From Parasulfitobacter algicola (GTDB lineage: Bacteria > Pseudomonadota > Alphaproteobacteria > Rhodobacterales > Rhodobacteraceae): a DNA stretch of 64,000 nucleotides. Positions 49,290-59,922 of the stretch are shown in pieces; position 1 is the first letter of the stretch, and each line of letters opens with the position of its first letter. The translations under genes and the position numbers were made by a program. Location of the stretch: positions 62,001 through 126,000 of the forward strand of contig NZ_JABUFE010000003.1 of the NCBI RefSeq assembly GCF_013315265.1, given 5' to 3'. The notes below the pieces were generated by a model. The model saw only the letters and a program-made list of their open reading frames with translations. It ran no database searches and was not told the DNA's origin.

Positions 49290-50036
49290 TTATGTCTCGA
49301 TTATGTTTGTGATGGCGCCACCAGCAAGCAGTGCGCCAAGCGTTATGGTCAGGTCGAAATCAGGTGTCAGTTCTGCGGCATCGCTAAAAGCTTCGCCGAA
49401 GGATTTCGTGCGCAAAGCCGTGATAAACGTTGCTGCGCCGGGCGGCAGCAGTGCGACTTGCGGATCATACTCGGGCCGGGTGATCAGCACCTCTTCGGCC
49501 TGCATCTGTGGCTTGGGTGCGCCAGATGACATGTTCACTTGCCAGATTGCATGGATTGGCCACGGGGACGTTACCATCTGCATAGATGGGGCAAGCGATA
49601 GTCGCGCCGTCATCAACTGATCTGGTGGCATGTTTTGCAATACATCAGGTGCAATGGCACTGCTGTCGGCGGCATGGTAAGATTGACGGATCGCCAGTTC
49701 TAACTGTGCGATATCCGGCAGATAGCCAATTTTCTGAGCAGGTTCAAACTGTTGCAGGAATGCAGGCATATCTTGGCCGTAAAACATCATCATCGGTGTT
49801 TTTGGCGGATGTTGCCGCAAATAGATTCCAGCCATAGCGCGAAAGAAATCCGGGCCGACCAGTTTATAGATGACCGGAAACGCGGCCTCTAAAGCATCTG
49901 TCAGACTGACGGCCACGTTGTTACGATAAACAGCGAAACGTTTCGGTGTCGGCAAGCCCTTGGGGTCCAGAAGGCCGGCAGGCAAAGCCATGGATGGATC
50001 CAATAAAGCGGCTGTAAATTCGGTTTGATCGGTCAT
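49290..50036 (-). CDS. DUF2063 (BufC/HvfC-type) MNIO partner protein
   Basis: A 248-residue protein with an N-terminal DUF2063 domain (about 1-95). [22 protein letters not shown] and [16 protein letters not shown] are typical. The family delivers precursor peptides to its DUF692 partner. Its ATG (50036) overlaps the stop of the DUF692 gene by 4 nt. The C-terminal half is variable. It forms part of the bufferin-like operon. Confidence 0.9.
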
Positions 50037-50890
50037 TGGACCAGTGCAGCAAGGGCTGCATCTGCGCGATCGGCTTCGGCGGCCAGTATGGGCCATTCGG
50101 GCACATCGGTGTCCCATTCGATTAATGTTGGCACGGGTCCGGTGCGGCTAATTGTGTGGGCATAAAGGGCCCAAACCGGATCAACGACTTCGCACCCGTG
50201 ACTGTCGATCAACAGCGGCGCACCATGATCATCTTTGTCTTCATCGTGCCCACCAAGATGGATTTCGCCGACATATTCCACTGGAAAGCTGTTGATATAG
50301 CTGACGGGATCGGTGTGTTGGTTTGTGGCAGATACAAACACATTATTCACATCCAGCAGCAGCCCACATTCTGTACGGGCGACGATCTGTGCAAGAAAGT
50401 CAACCTCGGCCATGGTTGACGCTTCAAACGCCAGATAATTTGATGGGTTTTCCAGCAGCATCTGACGGCCAAGAAAATCTTGCACATGTTTGATGTGATC
50501 TGCCACGCGGGCCAGGCTGGTTTCATTATAAGGTACGGGCAGCAGGTCGTTCAGGAAATGGGTGTCATGTGTTGACCAGGCTAAATGTTCTGAAAAGCTG
50601 GCGGGATTCAGCCAGTCAATCAGATGCTTTAAGCGGGCAAGGTGATCGGGGTCCAACTGGGCCTCTCCGCCGATGGACAGGCCAACGCCGTGAACAGAAA
50701 TTGGAAAACGCTGTGCAAGATGTTTCAGCTGCGCGATGGGGCGACCGCCGTCCCCCATATAGTTTTCAGCATGAATTTCCAGCCAGCAAACAGGGCCGGG
50801 GTCTTTCATGATATCAGAAAAATGCTGGGGCTTGTATCCAACACCGGGTTTGGCAGGCAGGGCGTCAAAACAGGGGCTGGTGTCAAGCAT
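50033..50890 (-). CDS. DUF692/MNIO peptide-modifying oxidase (BufB type)
   Basis: A 285-residue TIM-barrel multinuclear non-heme iron oxidase. Metal-ligand motifs are visible in order: [63 protein letters not shown] and TLIEWDTD. In described bufferin systems this enzyme converts Cys of the precursor to 5-thiooxazole. The start is the ATG at 50890 with GGAG upstream. A stem-loop separates it from the precursor gene. Confidence 0.93.
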
Positions 50891-50911
50891 GAGCAAGTCT
50901 CCGAAGCAGTG

Positions 50912-50943
50912 TTGCGCCCCCCGCAAGATAGGGGAGGGCGCAA
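50912..50943 (-). promoter_or_regulatory. Intercistronic stem-loop between precursor peptide and MNIO genes
   Basis: TTGCGCC (50912-50918) pairs with GGCGCAA (50937-50943), then CCCC (50919-50922) pairs with GGGG (50931-50934) across a 2-nt bulge, leaving an 8-nt loop. It begins 7 nt after the peptide stop. There is no U tract, so it is probably an mRNA stabiliser or attenuator that keeps peptide message in excess of enzyme message. Confidence 0.6.
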
Positions 50944-50949
50944 AATGAC

Positions 50950-51255
50950 TTATGCAGGCAGGTCGCGATCCAGTGCTTCAAGCGAACCTTCACGCTCTGA
51001 TCCGTCAGCCATTGCAGGTAGTTCGATGTCTGCACATGTGCCAGCTTCAACCAGGGTCCATGCGTTACCTTGGTAATCAACTGTTGATGTACCGGCGCAT
51101 GATGTGCCTGGGCCAGCTGCACAACCGTTTTCACCAGCAAGAGATACGCCATAGCATTTTTCTTGGGCTTGAGCGTTAACAGTTGTTGTAGAATATGCAG
51201 TCAGAGCAGCTGCGACAGCGCCGGCAACGGCAAGAGTTTTAACTTGGTTGGACAT
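50950..51255 (-). CDS. Bufferin-type precursor peptide (DUF2282, BufA1-like)
   Basis: A 101-residue secreted protein. A signal peptide of about 28-30 residues is followed by a mature part with four Cys: C34 ([10 protein letters not shown]), C45, C53 (TSCAGTS) and C74 ([10 protein letters not shown]). This is the DUF2282 pattern of bufferin 1, a ribosomally made peptide that binds copper in the periplasm after MNIO modification. The C-terminus is acidic ([18 protein letters not shown]). RBS GAGGAAC lies 6 nt upstream. It is the first gene of the four-gene operon. Confidence 0.88.
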
Positions 51256-53569: not shown

Positions 53570-54664
53570 TTATCCATCCATTGCGATAACAAAACCAACA
53601 GCGCCAGCCACGATAGCAAATAAGATAACAGCCATTGCAATTTTCCAGGCGGACCAGGGGCGTTCGCCCTGGACACGGCCAGTGCAGCCGTTCACGACAA
53701 AGCGATAGGTTTCACCGCGATATTTATAGGCGGCCAGCCAAACCGGTAACAGAACATGTTTGAATGTAATGGCGCTTATTTGCGTATTCATATCGCTGAT
53801 ACGTTGCCGATCACCACCGATGTCAAATTTCACGTCCCGCTCAATCACACGGTTCATAATCTCACGTGCTTCAACAAAACCGTCGTCCAGTTCGACCGTG
53901 TATCCTTCGGCGCGAAACCCTGCCAGAAATTCGGGCTGATAAGGTTCAAGCTGCGACAGATCCCAAGGCTGCAAAGCGTCTGTATATCGCTTTGGCAAAC
54001 TGTGTGATGCCAGAACAAGCACGTCATCGAAAAAGCGACCGACCCGCCCAGACGCACTGGTCCAGCGGACCTTGGCAACCTGTTCCTTACGTCGTTCACC
54101 ATTCACAACGCGCGTTCGGGTTTCATAGTAAACCGTCCCGCGCTGGCCACGGTATTGGGTCTTTGTATCGGCATCAAAGGTCCAATAGGGCACGTAGATA
54201 CCATCCATTTTCCGACCCTTACGTGCAAATTCCTGCAATCCATTAGGGGCAAACCACAATCGTCCCAGCCAATTGGTCATCGCTTTGCGTGCGTCGGTTT
54301 CATCCAGAATAAAGGGCAGCACACCTTTGGGTTTGATATGGCGATGGATGCCGGTGCCTGTGACAATAGGCGTTGCACAGAATGGGCATTCAGTGGCGTG
54401 TGTTGCGCCATCAAATTCCACCTGTGCACCGCAATTATCGCATTGAAGCACACGGGTTTCTTCGATTTCATCATCCGTCAGATCGTGAGCAAGCGCTTTG
54501 CGAAAATCCAACTCTTTGATTGAATTGCCCCAGAAACCTTTTTCGCGCAACTGTTCCTGATTACCACAATGATCACAGATCAAAAGACCTTCGCCGGGCG
54601 CGAACCGATAGTCTGCGCCACAGTTATCACAGGGAAAGCGGTGTTCCTGAACACCGTCAGCCAT
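53570..54664 (-). CDS. Zinc-ribbon membrane protein (TFIIB-type, YdjG-like)
   Basis: A 364-residue protein. Two zinc ribbons occur at the N-terminus: [20 protein letters not shown] with HCGN (about 12-36), and [10 protein letters not shown] with ECPFCATP (about 73-100). A beta-rich region with a [16 protein letters not shown] strand follows, and a C-terminal membrane span (about 340-362). It matches the B. subtilis YdjG type. Its start is 6 nt after the SPFH gene stop, and such proteins regularly accompany SPFH proteins. Confidence 0.85.
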
Positions 54665-54670
54665 TGTGGT

Positions 54671-55780
54671 TTACGCCCCTGGCGGGGGCGGGGGTGGCAT
54701 CACAGTGAAAAGCTGCGCCAATTCGTTCACATCTTCGGCTTTCATCCAGCCATCCTGACCTGCGGTCCAAACGAAGGTTTCGCGCGTCAGATTGCCGTCA
54801 GATGCCATACGGCCCATATCCGCCTTGGAATAGGGGCCTTTGGTTTGACCGTTTTCCGCAACATGCCAGACGTGTTCGACAGGTGGCGGCGGCGGTGCGG
54901 CAGAAGCGGGCTGTTGCCCCCATTGCCCGGCATTATTCATCTGGTTGGCCATTGCCATGCCCATACCCAAGCCCATGCCCGCACTCATTTCGCCACCGCC
55001 ACTTGGATTGCTGGCAGCTGTCGTCATGGCTTGGGCTGCGGAATATTGTGTGAACTTGTTCAGATCGCCCGTAATACCGATCGACGTACGTTTATCCAAT
55101 GCCTGTTCCACCGCAGGGGGCAGTGAGATATTTTCGATATAAAGTTCAGGCAATGACAGGCCATAACTTGCGATGGTTTCAGTGATCGCGGCAGCAACCA
55201 GCTTGCCCATTTCACCTGTATTGGCGGCCATATCCAAAACCGGCACACCGGATGAGGCCAGTACACGACTGAATTCCTGCACGATGATATTGCGGATCTG
55301 AAAGCTGATCTCATCCATCGTGAATTCGCCGTCAGTGCCCACGATTTCCTGCATGAACTTTGCGGCATCCGTCACGCGCACGCTGTAAGTGCCAAAAGCA
55401 CGCAAACGCACAGGGCCAAATTCCGGATCACGACACATGATCGGGTTTTTCGTACCCCATTTCATGTCATTGAAGCGGGTCGTATTTACGAAATAAATCT
55501 CGGACTTGAACGGGCTTTGAAAACCATGATCCCAATGCTGCAGCGTGGTCATGATCGGCATGTTGTTGGTCTCAAGCATGTAAAGACCGGGCTTGAAAAC
55601 ATCGGCCAACTGGCCTTCGTGAATAAATACAGCAGCCTGACCTTCGCGCACGGTCAGTTTGGCGCCGTATTTGATAGCATGCCCTTGCCGTTCAAATCGC
55701 CAGACCATGGTGTCACGCGTGTCATCCGTCCAATGGATAACATCGATCAGTTCGCCTTTTAGAAAATCCAGAATACGCAT
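54671..55780 (-). CDS. SPFH-domain protein with C-terminal GYF-like domain (YdjI-like)
   Basis: A 369-residue protein. The N-terminal part (about 1-290) is an SPFH/band-7-like domain of the virion-core/YdjI branch: LKGELIDVIHWTDDTRD start, then the TRFNDMKWGTKNPIMCRDPE block. A Gly/Met-rich linker (about 270-300) leads to a GYF_2-like domain (about 305-365; VWHVAENGQTKGPYSKADMG). It ends in poly-Pro. The start is the ATG at 55780. SPFH proteins form membrane-associated oligomers. Confidence 0.88.
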   Translation of the reverse strand: MRILDFLKGELIDVIHWTDDTRDTMVWRFERQGHAIKYGAKLTVREGQAAVFIHEGQLADVFKPGLYMLETNNMPIMTTLQHWDHGFQSPFKSEIYFVNTTRFNDMKWGTKNPIMCRDPEFGPVRLRAFGTYSVRVTDAAKFMQEIVGTDGEFTMDEISFQIRNIIVQEFSRVLASSGVPVLDMAANTGEMGKLVAAAITETIASYGLSLPELYIENISLPPAVEQALDKRTSIGITGDLNKFTQYSAAQAMTTAASNPSGGGEMSAGMGLGMGMAMANQMNNAGQWGQQPASAAPPPPPVEHVWHVAENGQTKGPYSKADMGRMASDGNLTRETFVWTAGQDGWMKAEDVNELAQLFTVMPPPPPPGA

Positions 55781-55870
55781 GGATACGCCTACCAATGATA
55801 AAGTTTCTATGTCCCCATAAAGCTGGGCATTGTTTGTATTTAAGTCAACATCCTACTGCAAATTCAATCG

Positions 55871-56839
55871 TTATGACTGGTTGCGGCCAACGATAAGTTC
55901 TCGTGCAACCTTTTCTGCAATTGGGCGTGCTTCACGTGCGGTCATTCCACTTTTCATGCGTGGATCATAAAGCATTTTCAAAAGAAATTCGTCATGATCA
56001 GTCAGAAGCCCAAATTCTTCGTCATCATTAAAGATAGATGGCCGCGCCAGCGCGCTGTCGTTGGCCAGCCCAAGACCTTGGGCAAGTTCTTCGTGAATGC
56101 ACGATAGCCGCATCAGATCAGGATGTTCGCCGCGAATGATCGCAATCGCTTTGGAATACGAACTGCTCTCTGCATCGGCAGAAAACGCAAAAACCAGACA
56201 TAACGTTGACCTTGGCATATCCACGACTGTACGAATGGATGTGTCTGAAATACCCGGTACAATTTCTTTCAATCGCGGGGCAATGGCGCGCCTGTCGTCT
56301 TCGTTCAGAAGTAAAACATGAAAGTTTGCAGTATCGTTAGAAACTGATATCGGCACCTTTGTCAGGTTCGATAGACGACTGGAATAGGATATGACGCGAT
56401 TCATATCCAACGTGCGCTGTGCTTTTGGTATCGTACGTCCGAATTCGATTTTCATACGAATGGGTTGTTCCCATTTTCGCAGACGACTTTCCGTTTCGCG
56501 CGCGATCATGATGTCACCAGCGGGGCGGTATTCATCAAAAAGTGCGATCCGGATGAAGTTTTCAACCAGATTGCGCGTGTTGAAGGGGACATCAGGGCCA
56601 CCGCCATCTTGGCGTAACAGACCTTGTGCGACCAGATCACGCTCAAGCTCATTGTAATGGCGTTCAAGCGCAAAACTTTCGGCAGACCGTCGAATAACGC
56701 GTGGCGCAGGCTGAGTGCGCGGGGCGATATTTGCCTCGGCTTCAGGCGGGGTTTCGGGTGCTTCTAGCTGAGTACACCCGGCAGCCCCTATCAATCCCAC
56801 GATCCCGGCCGTTCGAAGAAATGTTTGCGCCCCCAGCAA
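55871..56839 (-). CDS. DUF2927 lipoprotein with HEExxQ motif
   Basis: A 322-residue protein with a lipoprotein signal (lipobox GAAGC, Cys about 22). After a Pro-rich linker, the DUF2927 domain (about 95-310) includes CIHEELAQGLGLANDS, an HEExxQ motif reminiscent of metallopeptidase zinc sites but without the second His. A CLVFAF segment and DHDEFLLKMLYDPRMKSGM near the end are also conserved. It lies 5 nt after telA, so it is part of the operon. Enzymatic activity is not established. Confidence 0.85.
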   Translation of the reverse strand: MLGAQTFLRTAGIVGLIGAAGCTQLEAPETPPEAEANIAPRTQPAPRVIRRSAESFALERHYNELERDLVAQGLLRQDGGGPDVPFNTRNLVENFIRIALFDEYRPAGDIMIARETESRLRKWEQPIRMKIEFGRTIPKAQRTLDMNRVISYSSRLSNLTKVPISVSNDTANFHVLLLNEDDRRAIAPRLKEIVPGISDTSIRTVVDMPRSTLCLVFAFSADAESSSYSKAIAIIRGEHPDLMRLSCIHEELAQGLGLANDSALARPSIFNDDEEFGLLTDHDEFLLKMLYDPRMKSGMTAREARPIAEKVARELIVGRNQS

Positions 56840-56844
56840 TGTGT

Positions 56845-58041
56845 TTAGCCTTGCGTCTGGGTGTCAGCTGCATCCGGACGCGCGCGGACTTGACCAGCGC
56901 TTGCGGCGGATAATGTATCGCGCAGTTCGACTTCCATGTTTTGCAGCTCTTTTTCTGCTTCGGCCCGCTTGCGTTTACCTTCATCAGCAATTTGCAGGCT
57001 TTCTTCAATCGTAGCGATCAATTCTGAATTAGCGATTTTGACAGCTTCAATATCGAAAACGCCGCGTTCCATTTCCTGGCGAACCTGCTTATTGGCCTCG
57101 CGCAGGTTTTTCGCATTTGCCGTCAATAGTTCATTCGTCAGATCGGTGGCATCGCGCACGGCGGCGGCGGCTTCTGACGAACGTTGGATCGTTACAGCTT
57201 GTGCCAGTTGGGTTTCCCAAAGCGGAACTGTGTTGACCAGCGTCGATTTGATCTTATTGACCAATGATTTGTCATTTTCCTGGACAAGACGGATCGACGG
57301 CAATGATTGCATCGTCACCTGACGTGTTAGTTTCAGATCATGAACACGACGTTCCAGATCGTCACGGGCGGCGCGTAAATCACGTAATTCCTGCGCTTCC
57401 ATGACCTGTTTGTCTTCGTCAGCGGCTTTGACTTCGGCCTCTTTCGCCGGAATAATCTGGGTATCCAGACGTTTGATTTTTTCTTCACCTGCCGCGATGT
57501 AAAGCGCCAGTTCATCATAGAAATTCAGTGTTTTTCCATAAAGCTGATCGAGCGATTCAATATCTTTCAAAAGCGTGTGTTCGTGGCCCAGAAGCTGGTC
57601 CGTGATCATATCAATCTGATTTTGCACGCCTTCGAACTTTGCCATGAATTTGGCCGCAGGTGCCACGCGTCCAAGAAGCTTTTCCCACCAAGACAGCTTG
57701 CGATTGGTATCCAGTTCGCTGACATTGAACCCCCGAATTGTTGTCACGATTTCACGCAGGCTATCGCCAGCAGGTCCGACATCTTTGTTACGGACATCGG
57801 CCAGCATAGATTGGCTGATCTGTTGAATTTCAGACTGCGAGGCGGAGCCAAATTCGATGATCGACTGTGTATTGGACATGTCGATTTCAGCCATACGTTT
57901 TTCGATCTCGGCGCTGGATGGCGCATCGGCCTGGTCAAGCGTGATTAATTCGCCTTTGGGTTCGGGCAAAACTACTGCTGTGATCTTTTCTACGTCCTGA
58001 AGCGTTGCTTCGGCCTTTTTACGCACATCTTCTGACATCAT
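56845..58041 (-). CDS. telA: TelA/toxic anion resistance family protein
   Basis: A 398-residue, largely helical, coiled-coil-rich cytoplasmic protein (TelA/YaaN/YceH family). Family marks are the LREIVTTIRGFNVSELD and WWEKLLGRVAPAAKF blocks, TLLKDIESLDQLYGKTLNFY, and SLPSIRLVQENDKSLVNKIK. Linked to tellurite and cell-envelope stress resistance; mechanism unclear. It lies 19 nt after xpaC. Homologues pair with xpaC in Bacillus. Confidence 0.93.
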   Translation of the reverse strand: MMSEDVRKKAEATLQDVEKITAVVLPEPKGELITLDQADAPSSAEIEKRMAEIDMSNTQSIIEFGSASQSEIQQISQSMLADVRNKDVGPAGDSLREIVTTIRGFNVSELDTNRKLSWWEKLLGRVAPAAKFMAKFEGVQNQIDMITDQLLGHEHTLLKDIESLDQLYGKTLNFYDELALYIAAGEEKIKRLDTQIIPAKEAEVKAADEDKQVMEAQELRDLRAARDDLERRVHDLKLTRQVTMQSLPSIRLVQENDKSLVNKIKSTLVNTVPLWETQLAQAVTIQRSSEAAAAVRDATDLTNELLTANAKNLREANKQVRQEMERGVFDIEAVKIANSELIATIEESLQIADEGKRKRAEAEKELQNMEVELRDTLSAASAGQVRARPDAADTQTQG

Positions 58042-58060
58042 TTACTCCTTAATTTGGGCT

Positions 58061-58945
58061 TTAATCTGTTTTCAGCCCTTCACGCTGCAAGCGATCACGC
58101 AGCACTTTAATTTCAATGTCCATATCACTACGATCATCAAGTAACATTTTTTCGGTTTTGGCCGCAAAGTTGTCTTCAAGATCGGTTAAAAGGGTTTCAT
58201 ATTCGGTTCGGATTTCCCCATCCCTCTTGCGGGGATAAAGATCGGAAAACTTAATCGTCGCGTCCCGCGCGCCTTTTAGATAAACACTTAGATACTTGCG
58301 CGCAGCCGTCAGATCGCGCGGGTCATCTTCGATTGTGCGAAACATCTTGCGGGCGGTTTCGGAAAACCGATCCACCCGTCGTTCTAACGCCCTGTCCCCA
58401 AGTCGTTTGATCGCATCGTTCATCGCCACCACATGTTTTTCAGCATCGCCAACAGCCCGTGCGACACGGTCCTGCTGAAAGGTATCGACATCTTCCATGC
58501 CCTTGTTGGTCAGCGGATCGATGCCAAAAGCGAACATATGCAGCGCGGTGCCAACAGTGGCAAAGATGATCGGCGTAAGCAGCGTATCAAGCCCTGAAAA
58601 ACCAGCCAAACCCAAACCCCAGCCCGTCAGGATTGAGGCAAAGATTTTGCGCGGGATTGCAGGGCGCTTGGCAACACGCCGCGCGTCATAGGCTTCGTGG
58701 GCCAGCATTCCTTCGCGCGTCAACCAGGCGGCCAGGATCAACAAACCAAACGCAGTCAGGTTCAGGGCAAGACCGACCGGTTCGGACCAGAATGCCCGTA
58801 TTGCCAAAGGAAAAGGTGCGAAAAACAGCAGATTGACACGTCCGCCGACACGCGTTCGCTTTTTGCCAGTATAGGCATTGGGAACGTCAGCTGGTGTTTC
58901 AGATTTTCCATCGGGGCTGAATTTGCCGCCAAATCGTTGCGCCAT
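58061..58945 (-). CDS. xpaC: XpaC-like membrane protein (5-bromo-4-chloroindolyl phosphate hydrolysis family)
   Basis: A 294-residue protein with four predicted spans in the first half (about 35-165) and a helical C-terminal cytoplasmic part (about 170-294) with many charged residues (RRVDRFSETARKMFRTIEDD). It matches the XpaC family. The start is the ATG at 58945, whose A overlaps the stop codon of the upstream microprotein (TAATG), so translation is coupled. It lies next to telA, as in Bacillus. Confidence 0.85.
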   Translation of the reverse strand: MAQRFGGKFSPDGKSETPADVPNAYTGKKRTRVGGRVNLLFFAPFPLAIRAFWSEPVGLALNLTAFGLLILAAWLTREGMLAHEAYDARRVAKRPAIPRKIFASILTGWGLGLAGFSGLDTLLTPIIFATVGTALHMFAFGIDPLTNKGMEDVDTFQQDRVARAVGDAEKHVVAMNDAIKRLGDRALERRVDRFSETARKMFRTIEDDPRDLTAARKYLSVYLKGARDATIKFSDLYPRKRDGEIRTEYETLLTDLEDNFAAKTEKMLLDDRSDMDIEIKVLRDRLQREGLKTD

Positions 58946-59028
58946 TACGCCCCCCCGGACAAGGAAACATATAAAATAAAGGCAATGAGCAGAAAAAAAG
59001 CAATCTTCTGCAAACCAGTTCCAGACAT
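58945..59028 (-). CDS. 27-residue single-span membrane microprotein
   Basis: An ATG at 59028 with a strong GGGGGA RBS 5-7 nt upstream opens a 27-codon frame: MSGTGLQKIAFFLLIAF then ILYVSLSGGA. It is one hydrophobic helix with short polar ends. Its stop overlaps the xpaC start (TAATG). The RBS, hydrophobic composition and coupling support translation. It would be missed by length cut-offs. It may be a subunit of the TerC/XpaC/TelA membrane complex. Confidence 0.72.
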   Translation of the reverse strand: MSGTGLQKIAFFLLIAFILYVSLSGGA

Positions 59029-59097
59029 TTATTCCCCCGGTGTGTGGCACCACATGTGCTTATACATAGGCGATGCCCTTTGATGTTGCCAGATAAT

Positions 59098-59922
59098 TTA
59101 GCGTTGTTGGCCTGTCCGGCGTTCTGCATTAAGCTTGCGCGTGTATCCAGATTGCAGAATTTCGACGGCGACCAAGACGATCACAGCGAAGTAGAATGTG
59201 GTTTTCGACATTGGGATCAACGGATAGCCAAAGATTTTCAGCTGAAGATCATCATCATGCATGGCGTGTGATGCCGCGACGCCAGCTTCGCCCAATAAGA
59301 CAACTCCGACGATCAACAGAATAAACAGGCCAAGAACTTCGTACATGCGATTTTTTTCCAAAAACCGCGTAACGCCATCTGCAAGAACAAGCATTGCAAG
59401 CCCCGATAGAAGGATCGCTGTCGCAAGGATGGGGAAGACATCCGTGATTGCAATGGCCGATAGAACAGAGTCAAAACTAAAGATCAGGTTCATAAAGACA
59501 ATCAAAAGAACGACCTGCCGCGCTGACTTGCCGGATTTTGCTTCAACATCCGTATTCAGATGTTCGATAGACAACATGTGGCCGATTTCTTTGACTGCTG
59601 TGTAGATGATAAAGATACCACCGACGATAAAGACGCATGTGGCAAAGTTTATCCCGCCTTCCAGAATACCTGTCCAATTGAAGATATAAAACGGTTCGGC
59701 CAGCATTTCGATCAGCTGGATCATCACAAACAGCAAGATAACCCGCAAGGCAACGGCGATAATGATCCCCCAGAAACGTACTGCTTTTTGTTGCGCAACG
59801 GGCGCGCGTTGGCTTTCGATACTGATATAAAGCAGGTTATCAAATCCCAAAACTGCTTGTAAAAAGCACAGCATCAACAGATTGCCAAGGTTCTCGATGG
59901 TCAATAAATCAGCCATAGTCAC
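59098..59922 (-). CDS. terC: TerC family integral membrane protein
   Basis: A 274-residue protein with 7-8 spans. TerC marks are AVLGFDNLLYISIES at the N-terminus and FMNLIFSFDSVLSAIAITD in the middle, both containing the FDN/FDS acidic pair, proposed metal-transport residues. In other systems TerC family members export Mn2+ or take part in tellurite resistance. It is the first gene of the operon that includes xpaC, telA, SPFH and zinc-ribbon genes. The start is 59922 or 59916. Confidence 0.92.
   Translation of the reverse strand: MTMADLLTIENLGNLLMLCFLQAVLGFDNLLYISIESQRAPVAQQKAVRFWGIIIAVALRVILLFVMIQLIEMLAEPFYIFNWTGILEGGINFATCVFIVGGIFIIYTAVKEIGHMLSIEHLNTDVEAKSGKSARQVVLLIVFMNLIFSFDSVLSAIAITDVFPILATAILLSGLAMLVLADGVTRFLEKNRMYEVLGLFILLIVGVVLLGEAGVAASHAMHDDDLQLKIFGYPLIPMSKTTFYFAVIVLVAVEILQSGYTRKLNAERRTGQQR

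Follow-up and report, generated by a model that had tools for sequence, protein, structure and literature searches.

A recurrent gene cluster of Rhodobacteraceae that joins XpaC-TelA with an SPFH-zinc-ribbon pair, and its possible role in envelope protection

What brings XpaC, TelA, an SPFH protein and a DUF2927 lipoprotein together in one alphaproteobacterial gene run, and does the run act as a whole? The question is raised by positions 53570 to 59922 of the window, by which we mean the whole 64,000-nucleotide (nt) stretch of Parasulfitobacter algicola DNA analysed here; terC, a 27-codon open reading frame (ORF), xpaC, telA and the genes for the DUF2927, SPFH-GYF and zinc-ribbon proteins all lie there on the minus strand. 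TelA and XpaC have been tied for decades to tellurite and antibiotic tolerance, and we know of no mechanism. Our results show that the operon joins two modules that are separate elsewhere, XpaC-TelA and an SPFH-zinc-ribbon pair of the YdjI-YdjG type, and that its gene order recurs in the family more often than chance would allow. They also suggest that its products may form an inner-membrane scaffold guarding the membrane and envelope.

Gene order and the union of two modules

The features concerned are as follows.

59098..59916, minus strand: TerC-family membrane protein (PF03741, E 1.1e-37; likely ATG start at 59916)
59064..59092, minus strand: promoter-like element (CTGGCA-N16-CCTATGT), 6 nt past the TerC stop and 64 nt ahead of the microprotein start
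58945..59028, minus strand: 27-codon ORF for a predicted 27-residue single-helix transmembrane microprotein, found before XpaC in 133 of 136 loci
58061..58945, minus strand: XpaC-like protein of 294 residues (PF10112, E 1.3e-26)
56845..58041, minus strand: TelA (PF05816, E 2.8e-108)
55871..56839, minus strand: DUF2927 lipoprotein (PF11150, E 5.6e-62; TTG start; lipobox Cys is residue 22)
54671..55780, minus strand: SPFH protein of the YdjI type (Band_7_1, PF13421, E 7.7e-102) with a GYF_2 domain (PF14237, E 9.1e-21)
53570..54664, minus strand: double zinc-ribbon protein of YdjG-like architecture (Pfam ribbons; C-terminal hydrophobic helix by eye)

The minus-strand run with small gaps or overlaps, as described by an earlier sequence-only reading, was borne out by the re-read layout and the Pfam matches. 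TerC and the microprotein are 69 nt apart, the microprotein stop and the XpaC start share one base (TAATG, a 1-nt overlap), and gaps of 19 nt (XpaC/TelA), 5 nt (TelA/DUF2927), 90 nt (DUF2927/SPFH) and 6 nt (SPFH/zinc ribbon) follow, with thrS next after 104 nt. That reading had called all seven genes one operon; the label, a sequence-level one here, fits the unit from the microprotein to the zinc-ribbon protein, while TerC is optional and split off by the promoter-like element. The N-terminal half of the XpaC-like protein is hydrophobic and its C-terminal half is of cytoplasmic type. A proline-rich linker joins the SPFH and GYF_2 parts of the next-but-two product, in which no membrane helix was seen by eye. 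In the final gene product there are two Cys4-type ribbons, with Zn_ribbon_RRN7 and DUF1451 matches above the Pfam cut-off; across 53 zinc-ribbon protein sequences, the positions with conservation of 95% or more include the eight ribbon Cys.

Conservation was read in two samples. The genus-level survey covered 149 Rhodobacteraceae genomes, one per genus, 133 of which have TelA; 60 of these gave loci of about 14 kb each, leaving out the 30 best-scoring TelA genomes, which had 4-kb loci only, and many near contig ends. A scan with the window TelA gave 80 named loci, partly from the same genomes as the 60, and the 58 with enough flank were counted (nearest TelA relative Pseudaestuariivita rosea, 83%). 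The check for loss of gene order in relatives did not refute the sequence-only reading: XpaC-TelA-DUF2927-SPFH/GYF-zinc ribbon is kept in order and strand in 52 of the 60 genus-level loci, and several of the misses sit close to contig ends. XpaC (PF10112) stands beside TelA (PF05816) in 59 of them, adjacent and on the same strand, DUF2927 in 58 and SPFH in 56, and in 54 the zinc ribbon follows in matching order and orientation. The named loci agree, with XpaC, SPFH and zinc ribbon each in 58/58 and DUF2927 in 55/58. An rluB/rsuA-like gene lies upstream in 55 of the 60, and an rluB-like one in 42 of the 58. Taken together with the microprotein described below, these counts uphold the conserved unit that had been proposed, that is, SPFH, XpaC, microprotein, TelA, lipoprotein and zinc-ribbon protein.

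Two insertions were seen in the same 60 loci. In seven, the rluB-like gene and XpaC are parted by an extra ORF of about 340 residues (e.g. L042:4436-5464); by eye it resembles XpaC, and the L042 member, the one scanned, matched nothing in Pfam at 0.001. Eight have a multi-helix membrane protein, by eye of the cytochrome-b561 kind, between the SPFH and zinc-ribbon genes (e.g. L086:10484-11089).

Outside the family we read 19 TelA loci in 17 alphaproteobacterial genomes. Five of these, from four families (L157, L158, L160, L162 and L163), have XpaC-TelA-SPFH-zinc ribbon in order without DUF2927. In a draw of 299 Pseudomonadota genomes, drafts included and with TelA/SPFH distances matched by eye, all 14 genomes of the family with both genes carry them within about 4 kb, and in three genomes outside the class they lie on different contigs of draft assemblies. 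Elsewhere the modules stand alone: XpaC-TelA on a Cytobacillus plasmid, SPFH-GYF with a related zinc-ribbon protein in Vibrio coralliilyticus, and an SPFH protein with a TFIIB-type ribbon in Comamonas.

An alternative explanation is that two independent modules are mere neighbours near rluB by shared descent, without a joint function. Their separate occurrence in Cytobacillus, Vibrio and Comamonas is in its favour, as are the common inserts between SPFH and zinc ribbon, which lie more than 250 nt apart in 25 of 55 loci. The DUF2927-SPFH gap is that wide in 11 of 56, so the downstream end appears looser than XpaC-TelA-DUF2927. Against it, the XpaC-to-DUF2927 stretch is tight, with median spacings of 23.5 and 7 nt, and the order is kept across four further alphaproteobacterial families. 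We consider mere neighbourhood quite improbable.

Precedents come from Bacillus. The sigma-W regulon of B. subtilis holds xpaC-yaaN, pspA-ydjG-ydjH-ydjI and yceC-yceH (yceCDEFGH) as three separate transcription units (PMC3498285), which agrees with the separate Bacillus partners named in the sequence-only reading. The alphaproteobacterial operon thus unites what Bacillus has within one regulon. Like the B. subtilis PspA-YdjGHI system, it pairs a Band_7_1 SPFH protein with a double zinc-ribbon, membrane-anchored partner, as YdjG is described (PMC11237479); unlike that system, it has no PspA/IM30 (PF04012) and no TPM-domain YdjH in the Pfam scan of the locus, and adds XpaC, TelA, DUF2927 and the microprotein. 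As in the two-gene xpaC-yaaN unit of Bacillota and its Cytobacillus counterpart, XpaC directly precedes TelA, but here DUF2927, SPFH-GYF and the zinc ribbon come after. The plasmid pair of V. coralliilyticus matches SPFH-GYF with 45% identity over 97% and the ribbon protein with 36%, yet no TelA or XpaC is annotated within 7 kb of it.

Ter-dependent stress systems have reportedly been described by Anantharaman et al. With the Ter-linked systems (TerC/TerD/TelA; yceCDEFGH) the locus shares TelA and sometimes TerC; it differs in that TerC is optional and that no TerD/TerZ or other Ter match was found among ten scanned proteins. A search of openly licensed papers found none with TerC, TelA and XpaC together, although an earlier description is possible. 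The parts are known ones; what appears to be new is their fixed combination, together with the microprotein, promoter-like element and remodelled metzincin discussed below.

Upstream end: microprotein, promoter-like element and TerC

In those 133 of the 136 loci with enough upstream sequence, the ORF ending at the XpaC start is hydrophobic and 20-60 residues long, and in 71 loci it overlaps that start by one base. The same test at control positions gave 5/140 before telA, 6/134 before DUF2927 and 4/133 before spfh; the zinc-ribbon gene has a higher background, 26/124. A G prevails 6-10 nt before the microprotein start, the Shine-Dalgarno position, in 52-78% of 132 loci, and the window has a run of G there; the microprotein of the window would be one hydrophobic helix. 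Differences among the ORFs by codon position 1, 2 and 3 are 0.49, 0.34 and 0.62, a pattern that reads as that of coding sequence, and the ORF products share the loose consensus MSxxxLQKxAxxxLxxLxxxVxxGxxGG.

Upstream of the microprotein the strict pattern CT[AG]G[CT]N-N16-C[CT]TANNT occurs in 43 of 133 loci, against a mean of 0.06 (at most 1 in 50 rounds) in shuffles, which were mononucleotide shuffles throughout. It was absent from the upstream regions of 104 rluB-like, 37 TerC, 140 TelA, 134 DUF2927, 133 SPFH and 124 zinc-ribbon genes. A weight matrix trained on the strict sites recovered the element from 76 of 132 loci, for the most part 55-65 nt ahead of the microprotein start, with 0, 0, 0, 0, 2 and 1 hits in the same six control sets. 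Cross-testing between the two sets, with the matrix built on one and applied to the other, gave 28/73 and 27/59 against 0/1460 and 3/1180 in shuffles; the sets share some genomes and so are not fully independent.

Several identities for the element were considered and rejected. The RpoH factors of R. sphaeroides require TTG in the -35 box (PMC3441632), and the third base here is A or G; the CenR motif is TGA-N8-TGA (PMC9275681). A wide regulon was also rejected, and none was drawn, with 3 matches to the pattern in the element's own genome and 3 for the reversed control. Scans for sigma-70-type promoters gave fewer sites than in shuffles.

TerC itself stands at the locus in 9 of the 60 genus-level and 21 of the 58 named loci and, in a genome-level comparison by eye that also gave the subtype counts below, beside TelA in 25 of the 133 TelA-bearing genomes. 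It is a frequent companion, an accessory and not a core part. Among 37 TerC-bearing loci, the weight matrix places the element between TerC and microprotein in 19, and none of them has the strict pattern upstream of TerC, so TerC is most likely on another transcript and probably lies outside the main one. The sequence-only reading had made TerC a core partner, and in this it did not hold; a sign of an independent promoter within the run, the element itself, was found for TerC and for TerC only.

These results bear on the defence against metals or oxyanions that the same reading had proposed. In it, TerC would be the metal exporter or donor, TelA the source of tellurite resistance, and the lipoprotein their metal-binding partner in the periplasm. 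TerC proteins of B. subtilis move Mn and load exported enzymes (PMC12096827), and telA of R. sphaeroides is listed among tellurite-resistance loci (PMC6955997). The TerC subtype of this locus, where present, is nearly always here: of the 29 genomes among the 149 that have it, 25 carry it beside TelA, one has it on another contig and three have no TelA. However, TerC is absent from 51/60 and 37/58 loci, the promoter-like element parts it from the rest, and those three TelA-negative genomes retain it. The window had no Rfam match at the gathering score, hence no known Mn riboswitch or other known riboswitch before TerC. Metal defence as the purpose of the locus is, in our judgement, unlikely.

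A lipoprotein predicted to be a remodelled metzincin

The sequence-only reading recognised the DUF2927 product as a lipoprotein; it missed the predicted fold, which is like that of a metalloprotease, and the altered metal site. The model built from 58 related sequences has a mean pLDDT of 93.4. Its best Foldseek match is human collagenase (E 2.9e-3), and among the 50 matches listed 45 are matrix metalloproteinases (MMPs), 2 snapalysin and 3 Argonaute. The 50 matches listed by VIA are all MMP-type domains at Z 10.9-12.0, the best being MMP-7 (Z 12.0, rmsd 2.8 over 150 residues). The predicted fold thus resembles the catalytic domain of matrixins (MMPs, peptidase family M10), with 11-20% identity among the matches listed, but where matrixins have HExxHxxGxxH this protein has EExxQxxG..ND. 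The window sequence reads EExxQxxGLxND at the place of the zinc motif; EExxQ followed by ND occurs in 57 of 58 operon-type sequences in place of the HExxHxxGxxH/D zinc motif, and the second Glu, at the catalytic position, is invariant (58/58). The remaining one of the 58 carries H both where the others have Q and at the last of the ligand positions (HEEHGNH), a possible intermediate.

The family at large is less uniform. When 45 distinct DUF2927 domains of the class were iteratively aligned, 30 were E-E-Q-G, 9 were H-E-H-G and 6 were other; the 9 have HExxHxxG with a further His. All eight His-type proteins scanned exceed the Pfam cut-off for DUF2927, with sub-threshold weak matches to Matrixin (two), Astacin (two) and M57 (one) among them. 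In the sequence alignment, conserved S-I-F and G-M come after the motif, where a Met-turn would be looked for. The predicted fold and the motif counts lead us to regard DUF2927 as a metzincin-like family, one branch of which, including that of this operon, would have exchanged its ligands as a set. A search of openly licensed papers found none on DUF2927, which here gains a predicted fold and a residue-level hypothesis.

DUF2927 genes also occur in other settings. On contig C1 of genome G307 (46652-66787, L270) seven matches lie on about 20 kb, with HExxH and EExxQ mixed; L276:1448-2971 has a domain with intact HExxH fused to Sel1 repeats; and the genome of the window has two more paralogues (L264 and L265, on contigs C11 and C3), both EExxQ.

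The fold raises the possibility of a unit for periplasmic proteolysis or quality control, in which DUF2927 would be a catalytically active peptidase, with unusual metal chemistry, regulated by the SPFH protein, the zinc ribbon and TelA. SPFH proteins HflKC regulate FtsH, and the arrangement would be analogous. The MMP-like fold, the invariant Glu at the catalytic position and the relatives with a full HExxHxxG motif fit such a role, but the three expected His ligands are all replaced in 57/58 operon copies, and XpaC-TelA-SPFH-zinc ribbon is found without DUF2927 outside the family and in 3/58 named loci. We regard an active peptidase as very improbable.

A proposed membrane scaffold without PspA at the locus

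The reading that we prefer, and to which we give about an even chance, is that micro-xpaC-telA-DUF2927-spfh/gyf-znr is a constitutively inherited inner-membrane scaffold operon that protects the membrane and envelope. We infer a scaffold resembling PspA-YdjGHI in action, with PspA absent from the locus and a periplasmic arm added. XpaC, the microprotein and the zinc-ribbon protein would be the inner-membrane anchors of a complex. On the cytoplasmic face, SPFH-GYF would form an oligomeric scaffold that holds TelA as YdjI holds PspA in B. subtilis, and so would put TelA and XpaC at the membrane. The DUF2927 lipoprotein would face the periplasm, sensing or clamping there, its swapped ligands suggesting an arm for binding or sensing, or else an uncommon hard-metal site, in place of a classical zinc protease. 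The whole would guard the membrane and envelope under stress, for example from tellurite or cationic peptides. Complex formation, topology and stress role are all put forward here from homology and analogy. PspA of B. subtilis requires the SPFH protein YdjI to get to the membrane, and YdjI in turn relies on YdjG and YdjH (PMC8581546). Disruption of TelA in Listeria leads to greater nisin and tellurite sensitivity (cited in PMC12791056), and a tellurite operon is known in Lactococcus (PMC13109727); such phenotypes of TelA in other bacteria, with the R. sphaeroides telA locus named above (PMC6955997), fit envelope protection.

Several observations weigh against the scaffold. Apart from the wide SPFH-zinc-ribbon gaps described above, the zinc-ribbon gene is reversed in 2 of the 60 loci, and the weight matrix missed the promoter-like element in 56 of 132. 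For DUF2927, no Foldseek match reaches E 0.001 or better, and sequence searches with the operon's own branch gave no metalloprotease or peptidase match. The TelA model is weak (pLDDT 69.9, pTM 0.52), and since it matches only generic long-helix proteins it lends no structural support to a PspA-like role. Nor does TelA appear to replace PspA: PspA is found in 25/133 TelA-positive and 4/16 TelA-negative genomes, which is no anti-correlation and leaves simple replacement unsupported. Nor do we claim an ESCRT-III/PspA-like fold for TelA, given so weak a model and listed matches to ClyA/AhlB-type pore formers and coiled coils.

A bolder form of the scaffold proposal, which we find rather doubtful, would make it an alphaproteobacterial machine that spans the envelope and maintains the membrane independently of PspA. 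TelA would be the client of the SPFH protein, DUF2927 a repurposed metzincin whose H/H/H to E/Q/N-D swap made an oxygen-rich metal site or a periplasmic peptide clamp, and the 27-residue microprotein would couple the two halves. Little is known of PspA-like membrane protection in Rhodobacteraceae; PspA matches 29/149 of the sampled genomes there and TelA 133/149. The operon names likely partners of TelA and XpaC and exposes a microprotein coupled to them.

Some smaller observations were made. A PADLOC search with six proteins at E 0.01 gave no anti-phage defence match, and no TelA in viral contigs was confirmed. The genome of the window has one PspA homologue away from the operon (contig C1, L176:6385-7092), beside a TetR-like gene by eye. 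Elsewhere in the window, at 50033-51255, a DUF2282 peptide gene (PF10048) is followed by a gene for an MbnB/TglH/ChrH-type RiPP enzyme (PF05114), a pair that we take to be a bufferin-like copper-peptide unit.

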